From Spinellus fusiger (lineage: Eukaryota > Mucoromycota > Mucoromycetes > Mucorales > Phycomycetaceae), in NCBI GenBank assembly GCA_025094145.1, contig JALLLS010000102.1, positions 1 to 64,000 on the forward strand: 64,000 bases of DNA. Direction: 5' to 3'. The position numbers were made by a program, and so were the translations under genes. The notes below the pieces were generated by a model that worked only from the letters and a program-made list of their open reading frames with translations, made no database searches and was not told the DNA's origin. Position 1 is the first letter of the stretch. Each line of letters begins with the position of its first letter. This document shows positions 31,200 through 59,800 of this stretch, in pieces.

Positions 31200-32370
31200 T
31201 GGGATATTCGCCGAATGATCTTTTTTTTTTCTTTTCTTGTTATATCCAATTTCTATTTTAATGGAGCTTATTGTTGGGCGTTTAAATACTTTATTACAGT
31301 TTATTAGATACATATTATTCCATAGGATTTAATAGGATATATTTGATCATCAGGGCTTTGGCCCACCTTGATCCTCATATGAAGAAAAAGTCATCTTGAC
31401 GAATGGTTACAATCAAGTTAAACTGAATAAGTAGAATAGGAAGGCTGGTTTATTTGCTATAGATAGATGGCCTATTTATTCTGTTGGTGAGGTTTATTTC
31501 TAATGATCATAGCATCAATAACACCTAGTCTGGCTCTACTTTTGTCCTCAATGTACACAAAGTGCTATTCCAGCCCATGAACCTTGCCATTGTGATCAGG
31601 AGAACACTCTTCTTTAAAGAATCCGTTGATGTCATTGCTATTTGCCTGCTCATGTTTTTTCTTTCTTTTTTTTTCCTTGTTTCCCTTCTTTATCGGAGAA
31701 TTACAGAGTTGGTACAACAGTGGCCGGCTCCATAATGTCGGAATCCCCACCCGTTACATGTTTAGCCCTTGTTATGCCAACAACCAGACTAGAGGTGAAC
31801 CTAGTGTCTGTGTCATTTCATTTCCTATTCATTGTTACAACACAGTCATAAAGAGCCTCCATTCGTTGCTATTGTTACTTGGAATGGGGTGGTTATAACC
31901 ATGGCAATGATAACAATAAGATATAGGATGTAGAATCTACATTTGCTTTAATATGTGTCTTGTTTAATGTATGTATTTACAGTGATAAGAGAAAATAATA
32001 GGATACCATGCACTCAACAGGCTGTACACATGTACTGGATCCTACTATTCATGCACAAATTCAAAGCAATAGACCTTTTTGCTTACAAACATAGATATAC
32101 GCCAAGTATAAGTGCCATGTCATAAGAGTAGGGTACTGATTCGATGTGTTCCCGGCAGCCTATCAAATAGACAATAGAAAAAAGGATATCAAGAACAAGC
32201 AATAGACTTTACTAGAGCAATGAATGCAATGGAGTTCAAAACAATCCATATTAGTTAATGGCCCACTCATGCGTGTATCTCCTACACAGATTCTAACTTG
32301 ATTGTGCTTTCTTACTGTCACCCTTACTGTCACCCATGCAATAGTAAATCAATAGGTTATTTCAGTTAAG
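31200..32370 (+). repeat. Left arm of a large, mostly diverged inverted repeat
   Basis: It aligns in reverse complement with about 37100-38400. Diverged matches lie outside the core, for example ttaataggatatattt (31328-31345) against 38219-38232 reversed. They also lie inside it: gtgtatctcctacacagat (32273-32291) against 37193-37211, and the ggcagcctatcaaa block (about 32155). The core 31432-31955 is almost identical to its partner. Confidence 0.75.
31432..31955 (+). repeat. Near-identical 524-bp core of the inverted repeat, copy A
   Basis: Compared base by base, the reverse complement of 37649-38171 matches this segment except for one base of length in a T run (9 versus 8). No target-site duplication is visible at either end. 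Three protein-like but disconnected stretches read on its minus strand: FTSSLVVGITRAKHVTGGDS, SNDINGFFKEECSPDHNGKV and HFVYIEDKSRARLGVIDAMI. I do not recognise the source protein. Confidence 0.9.
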
Positions 32371-35300
32371 AAATCTGTAGAGTGGAAATGTACTTTATAC
32401 ACTGTCCTCGTTTTAGCTCATGACTCAGCTTTAATCGTTATGCCATGTCTATAGACAAAACCTCTATTTGTTCTGAGATGTGCTATTTTAATTATTCGTA
32501 TTTCCAAATAGTTTTTTATTTTATTTTATTTTATTTTATTTTCATATTAATGTCTAACTGTTCCACTGAATTGACAAAGTGAAGCAAAAGGAGAATAAGC
32601 CTATCCCCTATATTTTCCAGTATTCGACTCACACGAATCACCTTTCTATTTTCAATTCCGCCTGCTTCTGGAGGGTCGGTGGTTCCCCCGTCTCTAGGGA
32701 GGATATTTACTATTTTGTACTTTGGCTTGAGGCGGCCAGCATAAATAGTTTGACGTCCAGACATGTAAAACAATATGAATAATAATAATAAATACCATAT
32801 GAGCGATAAATAACAATTCGATTGGGGAAAAAGGTTAAAAAACAGTCCTCGCCGAATATCTGAGTTAGGGTCTAGAAATTATATTCGATACGAGTTGCCT
32901 GTAAAACTAAAGCACAGTTTCACATTAGTGTATGTGTGAAAGCCATAAGAATTTAGACTAACTTGCTGCTATAAAGATAATTTGGTTCTGATTGAGTTAT
33001 CCACTATTTGAATTTCTAAATAGTATCTTGCTCTATTCTATTATAGTATACAATGCTATATTCTATGTGCAAAATAAGTATCTTTGTAAAGTGGTAAATG
33101 AAACACGAATGTTCATAAAACTATATATTTATTTTTTATTTTTATTCCTTAGATAGGAATAGTATGGTTTTGATGTGGACACTGTTGATGAGCAGAAGAA
33201 ACCTGTTTGACTGTAGGCATTTTCTTTTTGAAGAAAATAGTTTGTGTTTTTCTGGGAATACAAATGTCTTTATCATCAACAACTGTCTTGATAAAATTGA
33301 AAGTATATGACCTTGATCTATTTAAAAGTAAGAAAAAGAAAAAAAGAAAAAAAAGGGGGGGAACTTCATATTCCATAGTTCAAGTGTTTAGAGTCTTTTG
33401 TCAAGTTTCTCTGATATATGTATAGTTGCTAACATTACTATTCTGATAAACTTCAATGCTTTACAATAAAATGATCGATGGCATGCCAAGCATGTGTGAT
33501 GGTGGGCTGTGATAAGCACTATCAGCTCCTCATCTGATACTCTAGAGTATGACCTAAATTGCAATATCTGTTGTTCAACGGATGAAATATCGATTTAAGA
33601 AGAGAATCATAGATCTAGTCACACATTAGAACTATCAAACATCGATCCTTTGGACATTGCAATACGACAGACAACGTTTATTAATATTGATATTGACATT
33701 TATTCCTGATATAATCGTATAGCTGAAGATCGTCTGCTTATTCTTAAAATGCTATGTTCATTTGAACAGTCAGTTCATCTCTATCATCCAAAATAAGAAT
33801 CAAACTGCTAAGATTGCTGTTGAAATGTGCAAACATGAATACACTTTTTTAACTCTTGTCATTCAATGTTTCACTGATGTTCAACTCATCACTACTGTTG
33901 AATAACCTGGATCTATTACCTCTGTAGGTTATCGTTGGACGCTTTATTTAACTTGGTAAACTCAACACGACAGTCTTTTATCATCTTATTGGATCAATGA
34001 GTAGAAATGTCGTCTAATGTTGAATATAAATATGTGTTTATTGACTCTTCAGAAATATAAACCTCCAGGCATAATGAGAAATCAGGAGATAAAATGTCTT
34101 TCTTTCTTTTAGACCTTTTTTTCTTTTAGACCTTCATGTCAAACAATAGCTGACACTGTGAAATTCTATAAAGCCTAAAATAAACATCCAATCATGGAGT
34201 GAGACTATAAATGAAAACAGAGGTAACAATAAGAACACTATAGGAGGGTGAGTTCGGAGATGTACTGTTAAACAACATCAACAGGGCGTATCATTGGAGT
34301 CACCAAGAGGAGTCGAAATGGTTACTGTAGTGATGTCTCACTTAGTGGACCGTTGGGCCACATCTATCAATGGATAGAACATTCTCTAGGTAGTTTATTC
34401 TTACAGTAGACTGACTGCAATAAAACTCAATAGTCAACATCCATTCAGAAGAAAAGCTGTCTCGAAGACGATAAGTTATGTGTCTAACTAGTAAAGTAGA
34501 TAGCAGACTAAGTATATTTTGTCTCATAGGTCGTCTCTGGCTTCCACCAAAGAGAAATCCTGGACAGTTGAGTCAACAAAGTCTGATCTTTATTTACTGT
34601 TTTGCACTTGTTCTATACTTCTCTAATTGATATTATCTACTAATAAAAAGAACCCTCTTGCTAAATAACATCTCCTGGATAGACGCCTTACTATTAACTC
34701 TTCCATCGTGTAGTCCCTCTTAGTGGTCTGTGTTTCTATTGACGGGGAGGATGGAGATCTCTATTTATGGCAAGTGATGATCCAACACATAGCATGGGTC
34801 AAAAAAAATGAATCAAACAGATATAGAAACTCCTAGCCAATCAAGATGACTTGTAATATTCTTAGCCAGGTTTCATCATCAAAATACAGGTAGTTTCAAA
34901 GATGCTCCTCAGAGTGGTTTAAGCTTCTGTTAAGATGGCCTAATGTGAGTGTAATTTGGCTTGCGTGATCTTTTGATCTTTTACATACTCATTTTCTTTT
35001 AGAGGGTGTTGGATGTAGTGTGTGTGTGTGTCTCTACTGTTTTCTTTTTATATTCGTGTACACTGGTCACTCTTTGTGGGTAGTTTAATCCGAAAATCTT
35101 ATTTCTACATACTATTAGGAGCCATAGACATAATAGTAAATAAATGGTATAATTGACATTTGTAGAGTTAACAGTAATGGTTCATTTTAATTGAGAACAG
35201 AAGACTCGTTTGTTTCACGTGACTTTGAGGGAAGGGTCTTATGGGTAGGGCAGTGGCTGTGACTATGAAAAATAATGCCTATTTCCTCAGCAAAAAGCTT

Positions 35301-37099
35301 ATTTCTTATACCAAAGACGGTCATTTAGAATATTAGCACTAGTTTATTACTATCTTTTTAGTTATCACAATCATATATCGTATAGTGTATACTAATTCGA
35401 TATGTATACATTATTTTACTACACTTTTTGTCTTTTATACGTTTAGAAAACATACATTATCACCATGTGGCCATCTAACACCATATTAAATGAATGATCT
35501 CGATATGGCTACCACATGGGATTTATCCGCCAACCACATGCTGCTTCATCCAAATAGCTGTCTTTGCCCTTTATAAATATTGAAAAGGGGGTATTCACTG
35601 ATCAAGATAAGAGTGTTATCACCCTCCATTCTTTTGTTCTGTCATCAGTTCTGTCATTCTGTGGATAGATTGAATACAAGTAGGTTTCCAAGTTATTGCA
35701 TAGAACAGCTCTATCAAAAGCCTATTTTCTTCTGTCTGTGATGTCTTTATAGAAGAAATAGAATGTACCTGTGAAGTATTAAAGTTCAAGAATCAACATT
35801 TACAAACTATACACAGACATACTAACACACAATGCTCTTGACTGATTGTGGGAAGTTGCTCAGTATTAGTGTAATACTCCATTCCGTCTTGGGCATGGGT
35901 CCATCCTTTCCTTTTCTTGTCTATAATTGTGAGTAGAAAACCTATAACAAGTAAGTCTGGTTTAAGGGTTTGTGTTGGCCCATTTCATCCTTGTAGGGTT
36001 ATCATTATCATCAAAATATAGGTAGTTTCTATATCAGTCCATGAATTAAGTTTTAAAAATAAAAAAAAAGTGAGGAGTTTAGATGAGTAATACTACAAGA
36101 GATTTTATTGGTGAGGGTGAAATAGAGGCCAGTCTTTTAGGTTGGTGTGATGAGGTTGGAGGTGAGTGCCTGAGTTGTTCACAAGTTGTGTTGTGTCTTC
36201 AGAGTGTCTTCCCCTTTAGCTTTGTAGGGTGAACTCATTGTTCAATGGAGAATGTGTAATAAATGGATGACTGTGCTCACTGTATGCATAAAAAATTCTT
36301 TAAATGAGTCTTTTGACCGATAAATAGTGTTTATCGTGCACACCATTAGCACATTTTTGTCTTGCTGATTGAATATAAGCTTCCAATACGACAATTGACT
36401 AGCCTCTTTAAATGGTACAGACAAATCCCAAACTCTAGAAAACCTCTTTGACGAACGCCTGCCAGGAAATAGAGGTCGCCTGACACTCTTCCCCCCCCCT
36501 TAACATTGGGTTAGTATTGTGCACAGAAGCCCCTGTCTATAATGGTGATATCCGCTGAGTTACAAATGGTTTCCATGGAGAGCCAACAGAGCCATCAAAT
36601 AGCAGTCGTCTTATGTTTCAGTGTTTTAATAGACCTTATACACTAATAAATGACGGGGTGGTAAAGTAACTCATACCTTGACATGCCATCTATCTTCTTG
36701 CAGTAACATTGACTAGTGTTCATCTTCCTTCAATTGGGCCATCCAATGTCTTTTTATGATCGTATCATTTTTTATCTCACTGAATCAGTCAATCTACCGA
36801 TGGTGGCATGCATAATGTGCAACGACAACTAAGCAAAAAAAAAAAGATCGAAACTTGTATAGCTCCAGTAAATCAAAGTTACATGATTCATTCTCAGTCA
36901 ATAGAGTGACAACCAAGACAGCTAACACAATCAGTGGCACCCTCTCAGTATGTTCTCCAACCAATCATTATGCACACCTTGGCTACCAGACAAATTCAAG
37001 TGTAGGACAAAGTACTGACATTTCCACAATCACATAGCTAGCCTAATCAATGTAAGCCTCCGAGCCTCCGTTCTTTTCAGTTATCTATGGATTAACAAA
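32371..37099. other. AT-rich sequence between the inverted-repeat arms
   Basis: No gene is supported. A minus-strand fragment at 32640-32760 (LPRDGGTTDPPEAGGIENRK) looks protein-like but stops both sides. If the arms were TIRs of one large element, its transposase should be here; none is visible. Confidence 0.5.
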
Positions 37100-38400
37100 T
37101 AGCCCCCATGAGTTCATCATACATTGAGGATTGGAAACAGCAAGCCATTGAGTGAGCGATAATATAAAAGAAAACACAATCTATTTACGATCTGTGTAGG
37201 AGATACACACTTCAATGACTTCATAACTAATATAGAAACTATTTTGAACTCAATTGTATTCGTTGCTCTAGTAGAGGCCACTATGCCATTCACCTTTGCC
37301 AACTGTCACTTTGATAGGCTGTCAATTGTAGTATATACTCAGCACCTTACTTCTATGACATAGTACTTATGACTTGGGGAAGAGGGAAGAGAAGAGTAAG
37401 AAAGTGAGTATGAAAAAAAAAAAAAGAGACGTGCATAGCTCTACATTTATGCATGAATAGCACAACTTTATTCTTGTGTGCTCTTTATTGAGTGCATAAT
37501 TTGCGGCACTACCAAGTCTCTATAGCGCATAGTCCTTGAGCTTACATAAAGAAAGGCTAGACTTTTATCTTGCAAACTTACCCTGCAAAAATGAAATTAG
37601 CAAGTAGTAGTCTTCTGTCATTATTATTCTCAACACTATTCACTCATTCATATTAAAGCAAATGTAGATTCTACATCCTATATCTTATTGTTATCATTGC
37701 CATGGTTATAACCACCCCATTCCAAGTAACAATAGCAACGAATGGAGGCTCTTTATGACTGTGTTGTAACAATGAATAGGAAATGAAATGACACAGACAC
37801 TAGGTTCACCTCTAGTCTGGTTGTTGGCATAACAAGGGCTAAACATGTAACGGGTGGGGATTCCGACATTATGGAGCCGGCCACTGTTGTACCAACTCTG
37901 TAATTCTCCGATAAAGAAGGGAAACAAGGAAAAAAAAGAAAGAAAAAACATGAGCAGGCAAATAGCAATGACATCAACGGATTCTTTAAAGAAGAGTGTT
38001 CTCCTGATCACAATGGCAAGGTTCATGGGCTGGAATAGCACTTTGTGTACATTGAGGACAAAAGTAGAGCCAGACTAGGTGTTATTGATGCTATGATCAT
38101 TAGAAATAAACCTCACCAACAGAATAAATAGGCCATCTATCTATAGCAAATAAACCAGCCTTCCTATTCTATTCTTTTTCCGTGTGTAGGTACATATTGA
38201 TGAGCAGTCTTTGTTATTAAATATATCCTATTAGGTAGTATGGTATATTTTGTATTGAATAAGGTCTAATGGTGTGATGATACGCCCACCTATAAGATTC
38301 ACCAACAGACGCTTAATGTAACAAAAAATGAAACCATTGACAGAGACCCTATTGTTTTGCTTTACAGTTTCACAGATTATCACTGCACTACCCTTTTTTT
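37100..38400 (-). repeat. Right arm of the large inverted repeat
   Basis: Partner of 31200-32370 in reverse orientation, diverged except for the core 37649-38171. The arm also holds a poly-A insertion (37414-37427) absent from the left arm. Confidence 0.75.
37649..38171 (-). repeat. Near-identical 523-bp core of the inverted repeat, copy B
   Basis: Reverse complement of 31432-31955 with one homopolymer length difference. Sequence identity drops sharply on both sides of this tract. Confidence 0.9.
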
Positions 38401-52606: not shown

Positions 52607-55600
52607 GGGTGTGAGTTGAGAGAAAGAGAGGCAAAAGAGAACAATGGAAGGAGCTGCAAATACGATGCTGACGTTGAGTAAGAATGAACTCTCCAACCAA
52701 TGATGACGTCTACCTTTGAAGGAAGTAAAATTAAGAGCGAGGAAGAAAGTGGATAAAATGGAAATAAGTAACGTGACTTGTCGAGACTGCATGAATAGCT
52801 CAGCCTGCAAGTCCAATGAAAGATGGGAGGGTGGTTGGAAGCATGGCCTTTTTACTGTAAATGGTTCTTTATTGATAGAGATGGGCAGACCCATTCTAGG
52901 TTGACTCTTTTTTCTTTTATTAAAAAATACAAAATATAGAATATAAAATACAAAATATAAAATATAAAATACAAAATACAAAATACAAGATACAAAATAC
53001 AAAATACAAGATACAAAATACAAAATACAAAATACAAAAATAAAGCAAAATGCGGGTTTTTAATATAGATGGGGCAATGGAGGGGTTGCTCATAGATACA
53101 TGCATAAAATAGTTCATAGTTCTATGCACAGACATACTCATGAAAATAGCCCATCCATTGATACTTTCTATCTCTATTTTCTATCATGGTGCTGTTTCTA
53201 TTTCTAGAGTAAGAATACACACTGTCTTGTTTTCATAGCCACTCTTCTTGTCTGGCCATTTCCTTCTTATTAGTGTTTGTAGAGTGTGAATAACACATTG
53301 AGATATTTCTGGGAGCAGTAGATCCAATCAAGTGACATTTCTATAGGAGTCCTCTCCCTTTTATATCTATAAATCTATATTAAATATTAGTATAAATCCA
53401 ACTCTTTGGCTTGTAACAATCACACTACGGAGAAGGCCATTTATCTACTCTATCTACTCTATCTACTCTACTTGCTATTGATCAGAAAATAAATCATATA
53501 GATTAAAATCAACTTTATTGATAAAACCATAACAAAGAAAGAAAGAAAAGGTGAAGATTTTATCCAATCTGATGACAAGACAGAGGCGATGATAAAACTA
53601 TAACAAACGAACCAGTATAATAAATAGCACACTAAACAATAATGTAAACATTGGAGAGGCATTTGATTCTACCCCTACTCATTATTCACAAAAGATAAAG
53701 AAAAGACAGCGTGCACTCTAAAGTACTACAATGACAGCTAGAACATGTCAATATTTACCCAAAGAAGTGGTATGTTTTTACAGTCAACACATCTCACTTA
53801 CCCGTACTACCCCAGTAGGACACGTGATAAGAATGCCTTGTCATCCGCATGATAGAATTTGTCTTTTCACGATAGAGTTTGTCCACAAAAAGAGATTCTC
53901 TTTCTCTTTGCATACAACAACAATGCCACTCAAGGATGATTATGCCTTTATTAATAGATAGATAAAGAATAGAAGGCATATCACCACTCGTAGATAATAG
54001 ACAAACCATCTACCTTATTCTACTTTGTGTGCCTGTCGTGCTGTTAGTGTTGCAATGTATCAATGGGATCATCTTGTTTATCAGGTAATAAGCCATCTAC
54101 TTGACTTTCTAAGGGTGCAAAAGAAACATGGCGTGGTAAAGACCTTTTTTTTTCTCTCTCTTCATAGTACATGGTACATAAATACATGTAAAAGTATTTA
54201 TAACAAGGCCTTTTTATAGTACTCTCCTCGTGCCATCGTACATCAAGGACTTGTCTGGCTTAATTTCTTATTCTTTTTCTTAGAATGCATTCATGGCAAG
54301 AACTATGCCACACATTTGATACACCCATCCCCTTATTTACCTGTCCTCTCCAAAAAAAAATATATACACTTCTATGTAACATTGAACAGGGAGACTCCAA
54401 GGCCAAAAAGAATAAAACAAGGAGAGAGTGAATACGTCTTGTTTAAAATAGACAGGGAGAGAATAAGTAGTCCAACAGAAAACAGAACTGGAAGGACATG
54501 TATGTGTGGAGTCTTTTTTTTCTTTTCTTTAAGGAAAACATTGAAAAAGAAAAAAGAAAAAGAAAAAGTGCCATACCAGCAAGTCAAGCCAATGTCTTTT
54601 CTTTTTGTACAGGGACTCTTTCTTATAAGTAATAATGATTTCCAAAAGATAGTTGAAGAAAAGACATTTGAAGAAAAGGTGCATATGTAGATGTTTGTTT
54701 GTTTGTTTTTGGTAGAAATACACTTTGCTTTTTATTGCCCTGCTCCATTGCTATTGATATCTTTCCTCCATTCACAGTACACCTTACTTGCTCCTATATT
54801 TCAACCCACAGATAAATAAGGATGAGTCATATGGCGTAATGCCAAGTGGTATAGTAGAAGCAGTGATTGTTTAAGAAACACTACAAATCATTATAACTCT
54901 TGCTGTTGCTGTAAAATACTCTCACAAATACATTAGTGCCTTTGGAGACGATAGCATAAACTACACCTATCCTCCCAATAGATATATTTGGCAGAAATAG
55001 AAATAGAAGGTTCTTTCATTATTATTTGCACTGAATTATTAAACAATGCTAAGACGTTCTTTGTTCGAGATTATTTCAAGATAAGAAGCTCCGAAATACA
55101 CGCCCTATCCATTGTATCGTAAGCTTGGTGGCTGAGATGGAATAACACTCTTAAAGTATTATCATTCTCTATACTGTCCTTGCATTAAAATAAAAGCAGC
55201 AATGTACTTTATAGATAAAGACATAAGAAGTTCATTGAAAAGTAATATTATTATTTCATTTTCTATAATTAAATATATTAAGCTTTGTTGAGCTTAAGTG
55301 TGAAGCTTCTAAATCATATGTAAAGTGTTTTATTTAATGTTGAACATGTCTTATCTATTTCGTCCTGATATTTATTTTCAAAATTATTCAACTCAATCGA
55401 GTGTGGCTGTATTAACACTTTCTTGAATAAGTATGTTAATCCAAATTATATACCTAATAACTTTTCTTTAGTAAACCATTGTCAAAATAGATATAAAAGC
55501 TGTTGTAAGTATGGCTATCTGCGCAAAAGTCATTAAGATTGTCCAAATAATGATAGATACCAAACAGAAAGTAGAGACATTATGATATGACCAAGAAATG

Positions 55601-56436
55601 GCAGCTTACTGTAAAGAATGAGTGAGATGAATCAGTTATACAATCCTATGAGCTAAATACTTTTTTTATACAGGACAGTTAGGTTGGAATATAAATACAT
55701 ACTTATTCAATGACCAAAATGTCAAGAGAAGCACACTAAAACACTACTGCTTCAGATTGATGTACAGAAATGATTCCAATCACTTGCATGTATTTGGAAA
55801 GCTCTCTTTATCAGTATAGAGTATATACTAACATTGAACAAGGTTGTCTGAATTATATACGGCACAACCAAGACACATTGAGAAGAGATATATTGAGTGG
55901 TGTACAGGATGCTGTTACCTCAGACCCCATTTATTAAAGAAACGAGAGGTGAACATTTAACAGTTTATAAATAAATAAATAAAACAGCTACAGAATTAAT
56001 GGTATTGAATAAAGCATCCAAGTCGTAGCGTATTTAATACAGTTGATGGATCTTTTAGAGATAATATAAAAGTACAACAGCCTGTATTAGAATGTATGTC
56101 TTTTGGTGGTGATTTCCTTGAAGTTCTTCTATCTGTAATAATCATCAAAGTATAAAAGAAGTATAAAAGAATAAAAAACAAGTTGAATAAATAAGAGCAG
56201 AGTTAATTGTACGTTAACTAAACCAATACCTTTGGACCTAAGAAGCTATTGACAACACCATCACATCAATGGATGATAAATAATAGCTGATACTATTCAG
56301 TGTTGCTAATAAAATAAATATTTATTTCCTCTTTTTCACTGCATTTCTATCTATTCTTTCTGAACTAAAGATTTTAATGAAGTAAAGAAGATACAATATG
56401 CTTATAGATTCAATCTAGGATTCTTGCATGTATTTG
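52607..56436. other. AT-rich gene-poor stretch
   Basis: No gene is supported. It holds the tacaaaa repeat at 52921-53040. The interval 56330-56436 may contain further remnants of the Fanzor relic (KDFNEVKKIQYAYRFNLG reads open at about 56370-56423), but this is weak. Confidence 0.5.
52921..53040. repeat. (aaaataca/aaatata)n tandem repeat
   Basis: About 15-17 imperfect 7-nt units of aaaatac, aaatata and aagatac. It makes an artificial Tyr/Leu/Cys/Ile-rich frame on the minus strand. Confidence 0.93.
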
Positions 56437-56839
56437 ATTTCTGTAGGAGCCTATAGCAAGTTATCCAGGTGCTAATACTACCAGAGTAATGACAATAAAG
56501 GGAAAAGGCGTGCGGAGGATGTTGACTAAAGAAAGATTCAGACTCTATCTTATCAATGAATTCAAAACATCGAGCCTGTGTCCTGAGTGCAAGTACTCAC
56601 CTTTGGAAACATTTAAACGTGTCAAGAACCCCACGCCCTATCAACGAACAAAAATGCCCAAAGTTAAATGTCATGGTCTTCTCAGGTCATTTCTTCTTAA
56701 TTTTATATTAAAAAAGAAACTCATTTCTCTCGTTTCAAATAGGTGTTCAAACTAAAATTGTATGAAAGACAAGACATTGAGGCTTTGGAGTCGTGATCTA
56801 GCTGCTACATTGAACTTTAGACATAGTCTAATGTCTTAA
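56437..56839 (+). pseudogene. Fanzor (eukaryotic TnpB homologue) C-terminal relic
   Basis: The plus strand reads ISVGAYSK, then after a frameshift GKGVRRMLTKERFRLYLINE, FKTSSLCPEC and TPYQRTKMPKVKCHGLLR. An intron (GTCATT...CAAATAG, 56687-56742) can be removed to give LLRCSN, one TAA stop, NC, and finally LWSRDLAATLNFRH before the terminal TAA (56837-56839). The zinc ribbon (CPEC ... RCSNxNC) sits before an xRDxAAxxNF block, which is the arrangement of TnpB/Fanzor: OrfB-type zinc ribbon plus last RuvC motif. Fanzors are RNA-guided nucleases carried by eukaryotic mobile elements. Here the N-terminal part and first RuvC motif are not recognisable. The stop and the frameshift near 56455 show that it is dead. 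The family call is by pattern memory. Confidence 0.7.
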
Positions 56840-59800
56840 AGGGAAGATGGTACCCTCTCATAGTGTTTTTGTAGATAGAACAAAAGAAAGCATGACTCCA
56901 TAGATACACCTAGAACCAATAAAAGGTCCCAAGCCTTCTGGTTCATCTCCATCCTTCTCCCTCATTATCACTGGAGCCTCGGTTGACTAACTGACGGAAA
57001 CCCATGATACAGGTAAACTACCTAAAAAGTGATAATGAAGTGTATCTTATTCGATTTTGTCATGCAAAAAGATATTATAATATTTAGTAAATTAGAACAG
57101 AAACAACAATGAATAAAAAACTTTTTTTCCTTTTTCAGCCAATTAAAAGTGTCTGTTCTCTCCGGGTTCTTAAATTGGACCTTTTTAAATTAAAACTGTT
57201 GCAATTCTTATGGCAAATGTCGACAGTAAAATATGTTGTAATTTTACTGTAGACATAATTCATAATGATGTGTAGATGAAGGCAGATTAAAAGGGCATCA
57301 TGTCGTTCTTATGATGGATGTAGATATTAATTCTAATAGTGACACCACCCAGTTGAATACAATGCATTGACCATCTTCCTCTATACAAGACATAGATCCA
57401 AGGCTATTCTTCATAAGACCTGTATTTTTCAGAGACATAGTGTTGGTATACAACTTTATTCTCTTAGCATGTCTGCTAATAATGCTCTACTCCATGTACT
57501 ATCTCTTTATCTGTGAAGACATCTGATAAATTTATGTTGAGTAGAGATATGTGCTATACCCTTATAAAACATTAGAAGCAAGTCAATAGAATAGATTAAC
57601 AACTACATACTATAGTGTTCTTGCCTATCTTTTGATTCTATAGGGAGATGAAAAGATTTCCTCTTTGTCAAATATTAACCAAGTAATGCCTGTCAAAGTG
57701 TTAGTGTCTACTCTTGGATGGATAAAACACTAGAGGCCCCTACTAAAAGAGCTAGTTCATAATAGAAACAATCTTTTCACACTTAAACACACACAATTGA
57801 CTCAATTAATAAAAAACTATTCTTCCGAAAAGCCTTGACTGTCCCTTGTTGACAGATAGACCAGAGATGGAAGTGCAACTAGCAAAGATATACTTTGAGC
57901 TAAAAATGTGTCAGACAAAAGAGAAAATGAACACCTATAATAAGAAATATCGTCTATTTGCTTCCTATTGAGAAAAGGCTTTATCCATTGTTACATGACA
58001 CTAGATACCAATATGTTGAACTATTATCTATTGAAAAACAAGAAACTCGACTGAAAACAAATTCAACCTTTGGGACAGTGTCTTTGATCTAAACTATTAA
58101 AAGTCAATAGGTCAAGACAATGATGTTTGAATGAACCATTGAATCAAAAGCAAAACACATTCTAGAAGCCTCCTTAGAGACAAGCACTGGAAGATAGTCT
58201 TAGTACAGTAAATACCTCATAGTAAGAGCTAGTATTTCAAAAGAACTAAAAGGCTATTATTGTAATACAAAATAGTATGTCTATGGAGGAGAACAATGAA
58301 TTTCTGCTATTGAATGAGCATAAAACATAGGTTGATTGTTTACACATCATTATGGCTTGTATCAACAATGAAATTAGACGTTATAACTAATGTTGACATC
58401 TGCCATGGGAATTGCAGCACTTTTTTTTATTTTTTATTTAAAAAAAGGTCCAATTTGATTATTTTAACCGTATAATTTTGGTGAAAAACCTGGATCTGTA
58501 TTGTTCCGGCTTTATCTCAATAGCGCCCATACCTACTTCCCCTCTGGATGGCGATTACCCGAGTAAATACCATTACCATACTTTCCTTTCCGATACATTG
58601 TCTATTTTGAAATAAAATACTATGAAAATAAGAACGATGATAATAATAATAATAATAATAATAAAGATCATTGACTCTCCTGAGAGTATAGTCTTATTTA
58701 ACATATCTTACATAGACAATATCTTACTGCGCCTATGGCTGCTGTTTATTCTATTTCATCTCATTACTATTACTATTCTTGTTATTAATACGACTGAGTG
58801 GTGTCTTAAATCCATTAGGTGTAAACATAATATTGGCTGAAAATGACTATCTTTATTTAACCATTTTTATCAGTCATCATTTAGGTAAGCAAATCAAGTT
58901 GATGCTAGACCGATGATTCATAATAGAGAGAATTACTTTGATTTTTAAGTGCCCATTACTCATATTTTCTGAGATAGATATAAAGATAGATATAAAGATA
59001 GATATAAAGATAGATGCAAAGATAGATGCAAAGATTACAGATAGTCTATCACTTGTATTCTTATTATTCCTACTATCTTTGAATCTAGTCTTATTGAGGA
59101 ATTCCCAATGTTTTGATTATTTCTTATTTTTCCATTCACAATTCACAATTCAAATGAACATGATACATGTCTGACATTTCATTCATTTAAACACTTGAAA
59201 CTACTTACAAATGATAATTAGCAGAGCAGCCTATCATATCATCAGTGTTCTATAGCTCATTTACTGTAGACTAATGCTTAAAATAGTGCATAGAATTCTC
59301 TTTCTTGACACCTTTACACTCTTCTTTATAAATATAGGAAAAAGAAAAAAGATAGAATGAGACTCCTTCCTTCTCTCAAGTGTAAGATCAGAAATAAAAT
59401 AGTGTTTGTTATCAATACAGTTTCCTATATTGAATATTTTTTTAGGATTTTCTTTCTTTACTCAAATGTTTTGCAAGTCCACTATCTCAGAACGTCAATG
59501 ACTCGGTTATTGGTATTAAAATAGGAGGTCATTAGACTCACTGGGATGTGTAAGACTAACTCATTCACCAAAAACACAGAAAAGAGAGTAGAATAGCTGT
59601 GCCATTCTCTTTGGAATGGGTTGTTTATTTGGAATGTAGGTTCTGCTCACACCCTTTCCTTCTTTCTACCTCAACAAGGTCGCATGATAGACTTAAATGT
59701 TTAGCAAGTCTAATCATATTTTCAGTTTGTACATCCTACACTTCTCTATTACGTTTATGGTGATAATTTCTGTATTTATTGAAGAAAGTAGTGGAGGGCT

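Follow-up and report, generated by a model that had tools for sequence, protein, structure and literature searches.

A probable Helitron2-like element with an internally deleted Fanzor1 gene in Spinellus fusiger

Non-autonomous Helitron2 elements that carry Fanzor1 have been described in Chlamydomonas under the names CRe-1, -2 and -3 (Bao and Jurka 2013, PMC3627910). From Rhizopus, Phycomyces and Mucor the same source reports Fanzor1 elements of Mutator-like type that have 9-bp duplications, and it reports a partial Crypton transposase in one Mucor family. In Spizellomyces punctatus, 134 'Ghost Spu-1' copies stand beside 42 loci with full or partial genes, according to PMC10432273.

We analysed a stretch of 64,000 nucleotides of DNA from S. 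fusiger, a member of Phycomycetaceae in Mucorales (assembly GCA_025094145.1, contig JALLLS010000102.1), called the window throughout, and compared one of its segments with these systems. The element found there belongs to a known kind, that of Fanzor1 in Helitron2 and of 'ghost' Fanzor elements. We give a probability of about 0.78 to the reading that the segment represents the 3′ portion of a Helitron2-like element with Fanzor1 that is non-autonomous, 5′-truncated and internally deleted, and the deletion of which has been amplified and exchanged between lineages. By their description in PMC3627910, the CRe elements share with it an intact 3′ end, 5′ truncation, internal deletions, variable duplications and, with candidate counterparts in Spinellus, two end types with asymmetric inverted repeats. 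Unlike them, the Spinellus element has one dominant deletion, a Rep fragment, and RepHel in one unit at two loci. As with Ghost Spu-1, copies without a working Fanzor outnumber those with Fanzor; in contrast, terminal inverted repeats and small RNA from Fanzor loci are reported for Ghost Spu-1 in PMC10432273, and Spinellus keeps part of the frame. The elements PBl-3, ROr-4 and MCi-4 are similar in being Fanzor1 elements of Mucorales with no transposase gene of their own, as PMC3627910 describes them. However, they have terminal inverted repeats and 9-bp duplications, whereas the Spinellus ends are unlike and duplications are rare. Literature on Fanzor with Helitron, on ghosts and on Mucoromycota, covered at the level of titles and abstract openings and with few subscription papers, contained no report of this element, and we found no literature on the S. 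fusiger genome.

A preliminary description, made from the letters alone, had called the segment a relic of a Fanzor RNA-guided nuclease gene and had proposed a profile search of it. That search answered weakly: the window piece alone reached E = 0.028 on PF07282, under the cut-off, its frame had no match in NCBIfam, and the read-through of the frame matched guided_TnpB in NCBIfam at E = 0.031. Because the piece scores so weakly on its own, its Fanzor identity rests on relatives, and these bear it out clearly. Two long frames of the genome, L009 (641 aa) and L010 (663 aa), matched the Fanzor1 of Parasitella parasitica (9cf0) with E = 2.8e-164 and 4.1e-159, and the Spizellomyces Fanzor1 SpuFz1 (8gkh) with E = 8e-48 and 7.1e-43. 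Scoring the 7991 candidates that share most words, we obtained 81 database proteins matching L009, many of them named as proteins from Mucorales. The Parasitella protein PpFz1 (PDB 9cf0-9cf3), of the same family as L009, has the same order of Glu and zinc ribbon; it also has a cyclophilin-binding insertion in RuvC, as PMC11423790 reports, while the window copy is without the part bearing the first RuvC Asp and what precedes it.

In an alignment of 24 sequences, D397 of L009 is invariant and E591 (NEFKTSS) nearly so. The two line up with SpuFz1 residues 158 apart, and the published SpuFz1 positions D383 and E541 are likewise 158 apart. All three RuvC acidic residues occur together in one frame of L014 (IDP, NEF and NRD). 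The expectation of relatives with RuvC Asp/Glu/Asp is thus upheld by L014, and for the first Asp and the Glu by L009; an intact, active copy may, as further suggested, exist; L009 for its part has a changed intron donor. The likeness of the window piece to Fanzor is not a chance one, since it has 150 scored matches in its own genome and the long copies among them are clearly Fanzor1; with 150 of 242 candidates scored, the match counts are lower bounds. A full-length Fanzor query gave at least 73 matches (69 of 657 candidates scored). By hand count, 10 of the 150 scored matches to the window piece start at residue 5-10 with 49-58% identity and represent a second Fanzor subfamily.

The zinc ribbon and the last RuvC block of Fanzor1 are encoded at 56447-56839 (Table 1). 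The frame 56447-56755 includes GKGVRRMLTKERFRLYLINEFKTSSLCPECKYSPLETFKRVKNPTPYQRTKMPKVKCHGLLR, and splicing out the GT-AG intron carries it on to CSN*NCMKDKTLRLWSRDLAATLNFRHSLMS. The resulting intron-free reading, CHGLLR-CSN*NC...WSRDLAATLNF, has one stop and no frameshift; with its 57 nt, the intron leaves the reading frame unchanged. A removable intron had been proposed from the start and is confirmed here: a Rhizopus azygosporus gene model (P0023, residues 763-809) aligns past the same intron in long copy L017, and the intron position agrees. The preliminary description had also counted one stop and one frameshift. The stop is there (TAA, 56753-56755), but no frameshift is present between 56501 and 56839.

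Table 1. Features of the Spinellus element copy, in order of their first position in the window.
Feature	Position	Strand	Basis
Whole element copy: 5′-truncated, internally deleted Fanzor1 element, 1848 bp	55242..57089	+	blastn against other copies (starts 55242-55246, ends 57089)
Degraded Helitron Rep N-terminal domain fragment, two overlapping frames	55652..55937	+	PF14214 on frame 55761-55937
Patch differing from long copy L013 (widest limits of a putative exchange tract, set after seeing the data)	56342..56575	+	Difference counts
Damaged first exon of the Fanzor gene (small deletion took the ATG region), probable limits	56369..56381	+	By-eye alignment with L013, L017, L009, L022
Putative first intron, GTAAAG...TGTAG	56382..56446	+	Sequence, and where the annotated S. 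fusiger protein P0007 begins
Second exon remnant: N-terminal stub fused in frame to Fanzor C-terminal part	56447..56685	+	Sequence
Deletion junction, 8-bp microhomology CAATAAAG	56493..56500	+	blastn against long copies
Second intron, 57 nt, GT-AG	56686..56742	+	Sequence; P0023 alignment via L017
Third exon, with the second zinc-ribbon half and the RuvC-III Asp (WSRDLAATLNF); premature TAA 56753-56755, end TAA 56837-56839	56743..56839	+	Sequence
TAAAAAGTGAT, matching in inverted orientation the left end that complete copies have; candidate for the 3′ asymmetric terminal inverted repeat of Helitron2	57023..57033	+	11-bp match in L013
Right end: palindromic hairpin GATATTATAATAT(C/T), then TAGTA	57071..57089	+	blastn matches of other copies stop here

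The four-Cys zinc ribbon of the window copy, CPEC before the intron and CHGLLR-C..NC across it, requires both splicing and read-through of the stop. Besides CPEC, the second exon remnant retains the catalytic-type Glu (LINEFKTSS). The RuvC Asp-Glu-Asp triad is incomplete, the Glu and the third Asp being kept and the first Asp deleted; judging from the extent of the deletion, REC and WED would be gone as well. The probable first exon is without the ATG-bearing piece of other copies (AAAGATTTTAATGAAG against AAAGATGCTACACACTCAACAAGATGTTAATGAAG in L013, by eye), a loss found also in L025 and, with small differences, in L031, and absent in L013. Eight database proteins match the window piece, all from S. 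fusiger, and at least some small Spinellus 'hypothetical proteins' are pieces of a deleted transposon gene.

The feature, initially drawn at 56437-56839, proved too small, as homology to other copies spans 55242/55246 to 57089. Left ends vary and many copies are 5′-truncated, the window copy at 55242-55246; it is without the conserved left end that other copies have farther left. This left end, at which AAAAATCACTTTTT is by eye a candidate 5′ hairpin, gave 78 genome matches when searched as a pattern, against 0 in the control, and TATATAATT is retained in most flanks of 33 left ends. The right-end hairpin GATATTATAATATC with TAGTA gave 240 genome matches on both strands at up to 2 mismatches (control, 12), some sites being counted twice because the pattern is palindromic. 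One pair of the 3′ terminal hairpin covaries, as T-A in 14, T-G in 6, C-G in 3 and other combinations in 2 of 25 copies.

Placed 56 bp from the 3′ end, the 11-bp inverted repeat can be recognised, when up to 1 mismatch is allowed, in 17 of the 26 short copies and in 10 of the 12 long ones. It was sought after reading the Helitron2 description, and 10 of 5000 mononucleotide shuffles reach it; it also sits farther from the 3′ hairpin than in the published description. Direct repeats of 9-11 bp abut both sides in 3 of 40 copies and 37 have none, some left ends being outside the piece compared. A constant 9-bp duplication was rejected as the rule, as a script found abutting repeats in 2 of 30 copies (L022, L035) and inspection by eye in 1 of 10 pairs (L065/L066); in L046 the 13-bp match at the sides is the left end itself. 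By eye, we saw no long terminal inverted repeats, the ends being unlike beyond TACT. An ACT motif recurs about 7-9 bp beyond the right ends, in jittered positions, and a plain Helitron does not predict it.

Inside the element there is a weak, probable remnant of a Helitron Rep gene. The window frame 55761-55937 scores 16.1 bits on PF14214 (E = 0.013; cut-off 28.9), and the frame 55652-55819 and the matching L013 frame gave no match to this profile; the PF14214 matches seen in two sister copies correspond to window 55748-55963 (L046) and 55766-55998 (L043). Genome-wide, 27 Helitron_like_N matches were obtained, 20 of them over the cut-off. By their coordinates, eight of the 27 are found, in the same orientation, either a short way upstream of a Fanzor match or immediately within a left end. 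These eight are weak (23.7-28.9 bits), and one of them, C124:141687, has a left end and no listed Fanzor match.

A broken RepHel gene is found at two loci, L089 (on C101) and L090+L033 (on C2), upstream of a short Fanzor module on the same strand. Its profiles are PF14214 at E = 5.9e-62, Pif1_2B at 4.8e-14 and 1e-17, and PIF1 at 4.2e-4, the last under its cut-off. From Rep through the shared right end, the two loci are 90-95% alike in the aligned pieces, and the homology stops 14-15 bp past that end. The C2 copy holds about 0.57 kb extra within the RepHel unit, and the left end of this unit was unseen. The Rep fragment of the window is a different and more decayed piece than these genes. No working mobiliser was seen, the RepHel frames being broken at both loci. 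With its constant 3′ hairpin end, variable 5′ ends, weak Rep remnant and RepHel in one unit at two loci, the element looks Helitron2-like. We infer movement by Helitron from the Rep remnants, from RepHel loci with the same right end, and from the likeness to the Chlamydomonas Helitron2 elements with Fanzor1. The element adds a fungal example of Fanzor1 and Helitron genes combined in a single unit that has a common end.

A tyrosine recombinase (Crypton-like) or a Mutator-type transposase might instead move the element. In related Mucorales, Mutator-like Fanzor1 elements and a partial Crypton transposase have been described (PMC3627910), and the constant left flank TATATAATT together with a variable right flank resembles coupling sequences. 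The genome also has 27 MULE (PF10551) matches. However, by eye none of the 27 lies within a few kb of a listed Fanzor match, left end or right end (among the right ends listed), and a Mutator origin was rejected on this ground. Long terminal inverted repeats were unseen, and Rep remnants and RepHel do adjoin copies of the element. With MULE transposases as the alternative searched for, we regard a mobiliser other than Helitron as unlikely.

Comparing the window copy with the long copies by blastn, we find 1662 bp missing relative to L009, L010 and L027. The size is 1658-1663 bp against five further long copies, and shorter against L011 and L015, both of which are themselves gapped. At CAATAAAG the start of the Fanzor frame is fused in frame to its last sixth. 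The 3′ match begins at 56493-56500 in 12 of 12 long copies and the 5′ match ends there in 10; L014 and L020 are without the 5′ half and so have no 5′ match end at the junction. Taking as short copies the matches that run across the joint, with two fragments set aside, we found the same joint in 26 of 26 fetched. By hand count, 112 of the 150 scored genome matches begin at residue 1-3 and run across the junction; another 28 begin at residue 12-18, which makes them long-type. The main lesion therefore belongs to an amplified deletion derivative. Removal of the piece by splicing was rejected, as on inspection the missing 1662 bp has no GT-AG ends. Long and deleted Fanzor elements coexist in numbers in this genome, which allows one to ask of what use Fanzor is to the element.

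Outside a patch of at most 234 bp, the window copy is 97-98.5% identical to long copy L013. The patch holds 31 differences from L013 and the other 1614 bp hold 42 (Fisher p = 7.3e-11); when the 73 differences were placed at random, 0 of 20000 placements put 31 in any 234 bp. Over 56455-56540 the window copy equals short copy L021 without a difference. We also built trees, which cover up to 39 of the at least 150 copies. On the 3′ side (589 bp, 39 copies) short and long copies are mixed, with 12 changes, at least 4 of them forced by starred branches, and the window copy stands beside L013; a single clade of short copies is rejected (p-AU 2.5e-5). On the 5′ side (228 bp, 37 copies, excluding two long copies that have no 5′ side) the short copies stand largely apart, with 2 changes, and 0 of 500 shuffles are as low; here one short-copy clade is not rejected (p = 0.43), its bootstrap being 14%. 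From these patterns, the deletion probably had a single origin and then passed among the copies through homologous exchange. If a homologous patch brought the deletion in, this explains together the L013-like backbone, the short-type sequence at the junction and the first-exon loss of the window copy. L013 may equally well have been refilled instead of the window copy being patched. For other short copies an L013-like partner is less clear than for the window copy. The mosaic suggests that no new transposition is needed for a deletion to pass from one copy to another.

Many separate losses would be another reading of the mixed short and long copies on the 3′ side: the deletion might have recurred between the two CAATAAAG repeats, with replication slippage in the course of transposition as one possible way. 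The 12 changes, at least 4 of them forced, would fit this, and an 8-bp repeat favours recurrence. However, the short copies group on the 5′ side, and short-type sequence that flanks the junction on either side, set in an L013-like backbone, is not what a fresh deletion would produce. We hold recurrence to be quite unlikely. Within the exchange reading, one could further imagine that Fanzor, with guides from the element ends, breaks long elements that are then repaired from short copies. In this way the nuclease would cause its own gene to be replaced by a ghost that has only the zinc ribbon and lives on Helitron mobility. This is a long shot, which we put forward as speculation of very low probability.

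The short copies may alternatively be kept as functional 'ghosts', expressing a guide RNA, or a small protein with the zinc ribbon, that would work together with the Fanzor of long copies or counter it. The in-frame fusion and several open frames are in its favour, as is dN/dS, which is 0.74 (0.56-0.96) in short copies; in PMC10432273, the Spizellomyces ghosts are reported to keep a guide-RNA region. Against this, the short copies look less constrained than the long ones (0.53, 0.39-0.71), with ranges that overlap, and have more stops, which occur within the 93 codons compared in 11 of the 27 short copies and in 2 of the 12 long ones. At a dN/dS of 0.74 any constraint on the short frame is weak at most, and it could stem from exchange with long copies. 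A functional mini-protein was rejected, dN/dS being only weakly below 1 and stops occurring in 11 of the 27.

A guide RNA from the right end was looked for in three ways. The 3′ non-coding part is more diverged pairwise than the intron, both in short copies (0.120 vs 0.086) and in long copies (0.093 vs 0.080). Among 44 predicted pairs one is compensatory; it lies within the terminal hairpin, and the Helitron reading explains it equally well. Rfam gave no match in window 55000-57400. Conservation, covariation and Rfam thus lend no support to a guide RNA, and the guide-RNA region anticipated for the relatives finds none here; the genome search for paralogues proposed with it did yield long-type copies, without a specially conserved 3′ flank. 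A retained function of the short copies appears very unlikely to us.

Decay in place of a formerly intact, spliced Fanzor gene, to which the stop at 56753, the lost ATG region and the 97-98.5% identity to L013 outside the patch would point, stands little chance, since for the main lesion it is contradicted by a central deletion that all 26 fetched short copies have and that 112 of the 150 scored matches span, and the junction-side sequence is of short-copy type, not that of L013. The view of the locus as a relic decayed from a spliced copy accordingly holds for intron, stop and ATG loss, but the main event is an in-frame 1662-bp deletion common to short copies.

Under the preferred reading, of an amplified and exchanged deletion derivative of a Helitron2-like element, the following course may be proposed. 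The complete element would have a left end TATATAATTACTGAAAAATCAC..., the Fanzor gene, and a right end with the terminal hairpin and CTAGTA. Its gene would consist of a short first exon, probable from the copies compared, a second, long one (some 640 codons), a 54-63 nt intron and a third exon. One deletion between the two CAATAAAG repeats would have taken out residues ~18-571 (numbered as in L009) of the long exon; the short frame that was left has the zinc ribbon, the catalytic-type Glu and the RuvC-III Asp and is without the first RuvC Asp. Going by these sequence features, the derivative should be unable to act as an RNA-guided nuclease. It would have been amplified, most likely by a Helitron Rep/helicase recognising the shared 3′ end. 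The deletion may then have passed between element lineages by gene conversion or other homologous exchange, the mosaic being the part of this that is seen. The window copy would finally have lost the ATG region, in common with L025 and L031, and acquired the stop.

Several other repeats were noticed. A 5′ module of 170 bp, at window 55243-55414, recurs at 77-85% in the otherwise different L014 (6654-6822), L015 (1944-2113) and L028 (4784-4612), and the L028 copy adjoins a Fanzor of the second subfamily. On the minus strand, window 60178-60462 matches at 87-88% a sequence beside the second-subfamily Fanzor at L018. Two short elements at L026 3586-5462 and 7866-9742 form a 1877-bp inverted repeat of 100% identity, 2403 nt apart, with the right ends as outer edges. 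At L091, 1-1543 and 5863-7405 form another 100% inverted repeat, which has an element copy and extends past it, and several further inverted copy pairs of equal score occur on single contigs; these may be real duplications or assembly products. Directly adjoining the Fanzor element, window 57172-57274 and 58341-58456 are diverged inverted ends of another repeat family, to which a stretch at C27:46733-47362, with 93% identity, is related. Elsewhere in the window, 31422-31955 and 37649-38183 form a 536-bp inverted repeat (99%, 5.7 kb apart), and the region 31400-38200 has two frames of at least 110 aa, the longest of 122 aa. A 518-aa open frame at 739-2295 resembles, by eye, the C-terminal part of a LINE-type reverse transcriptase protein.
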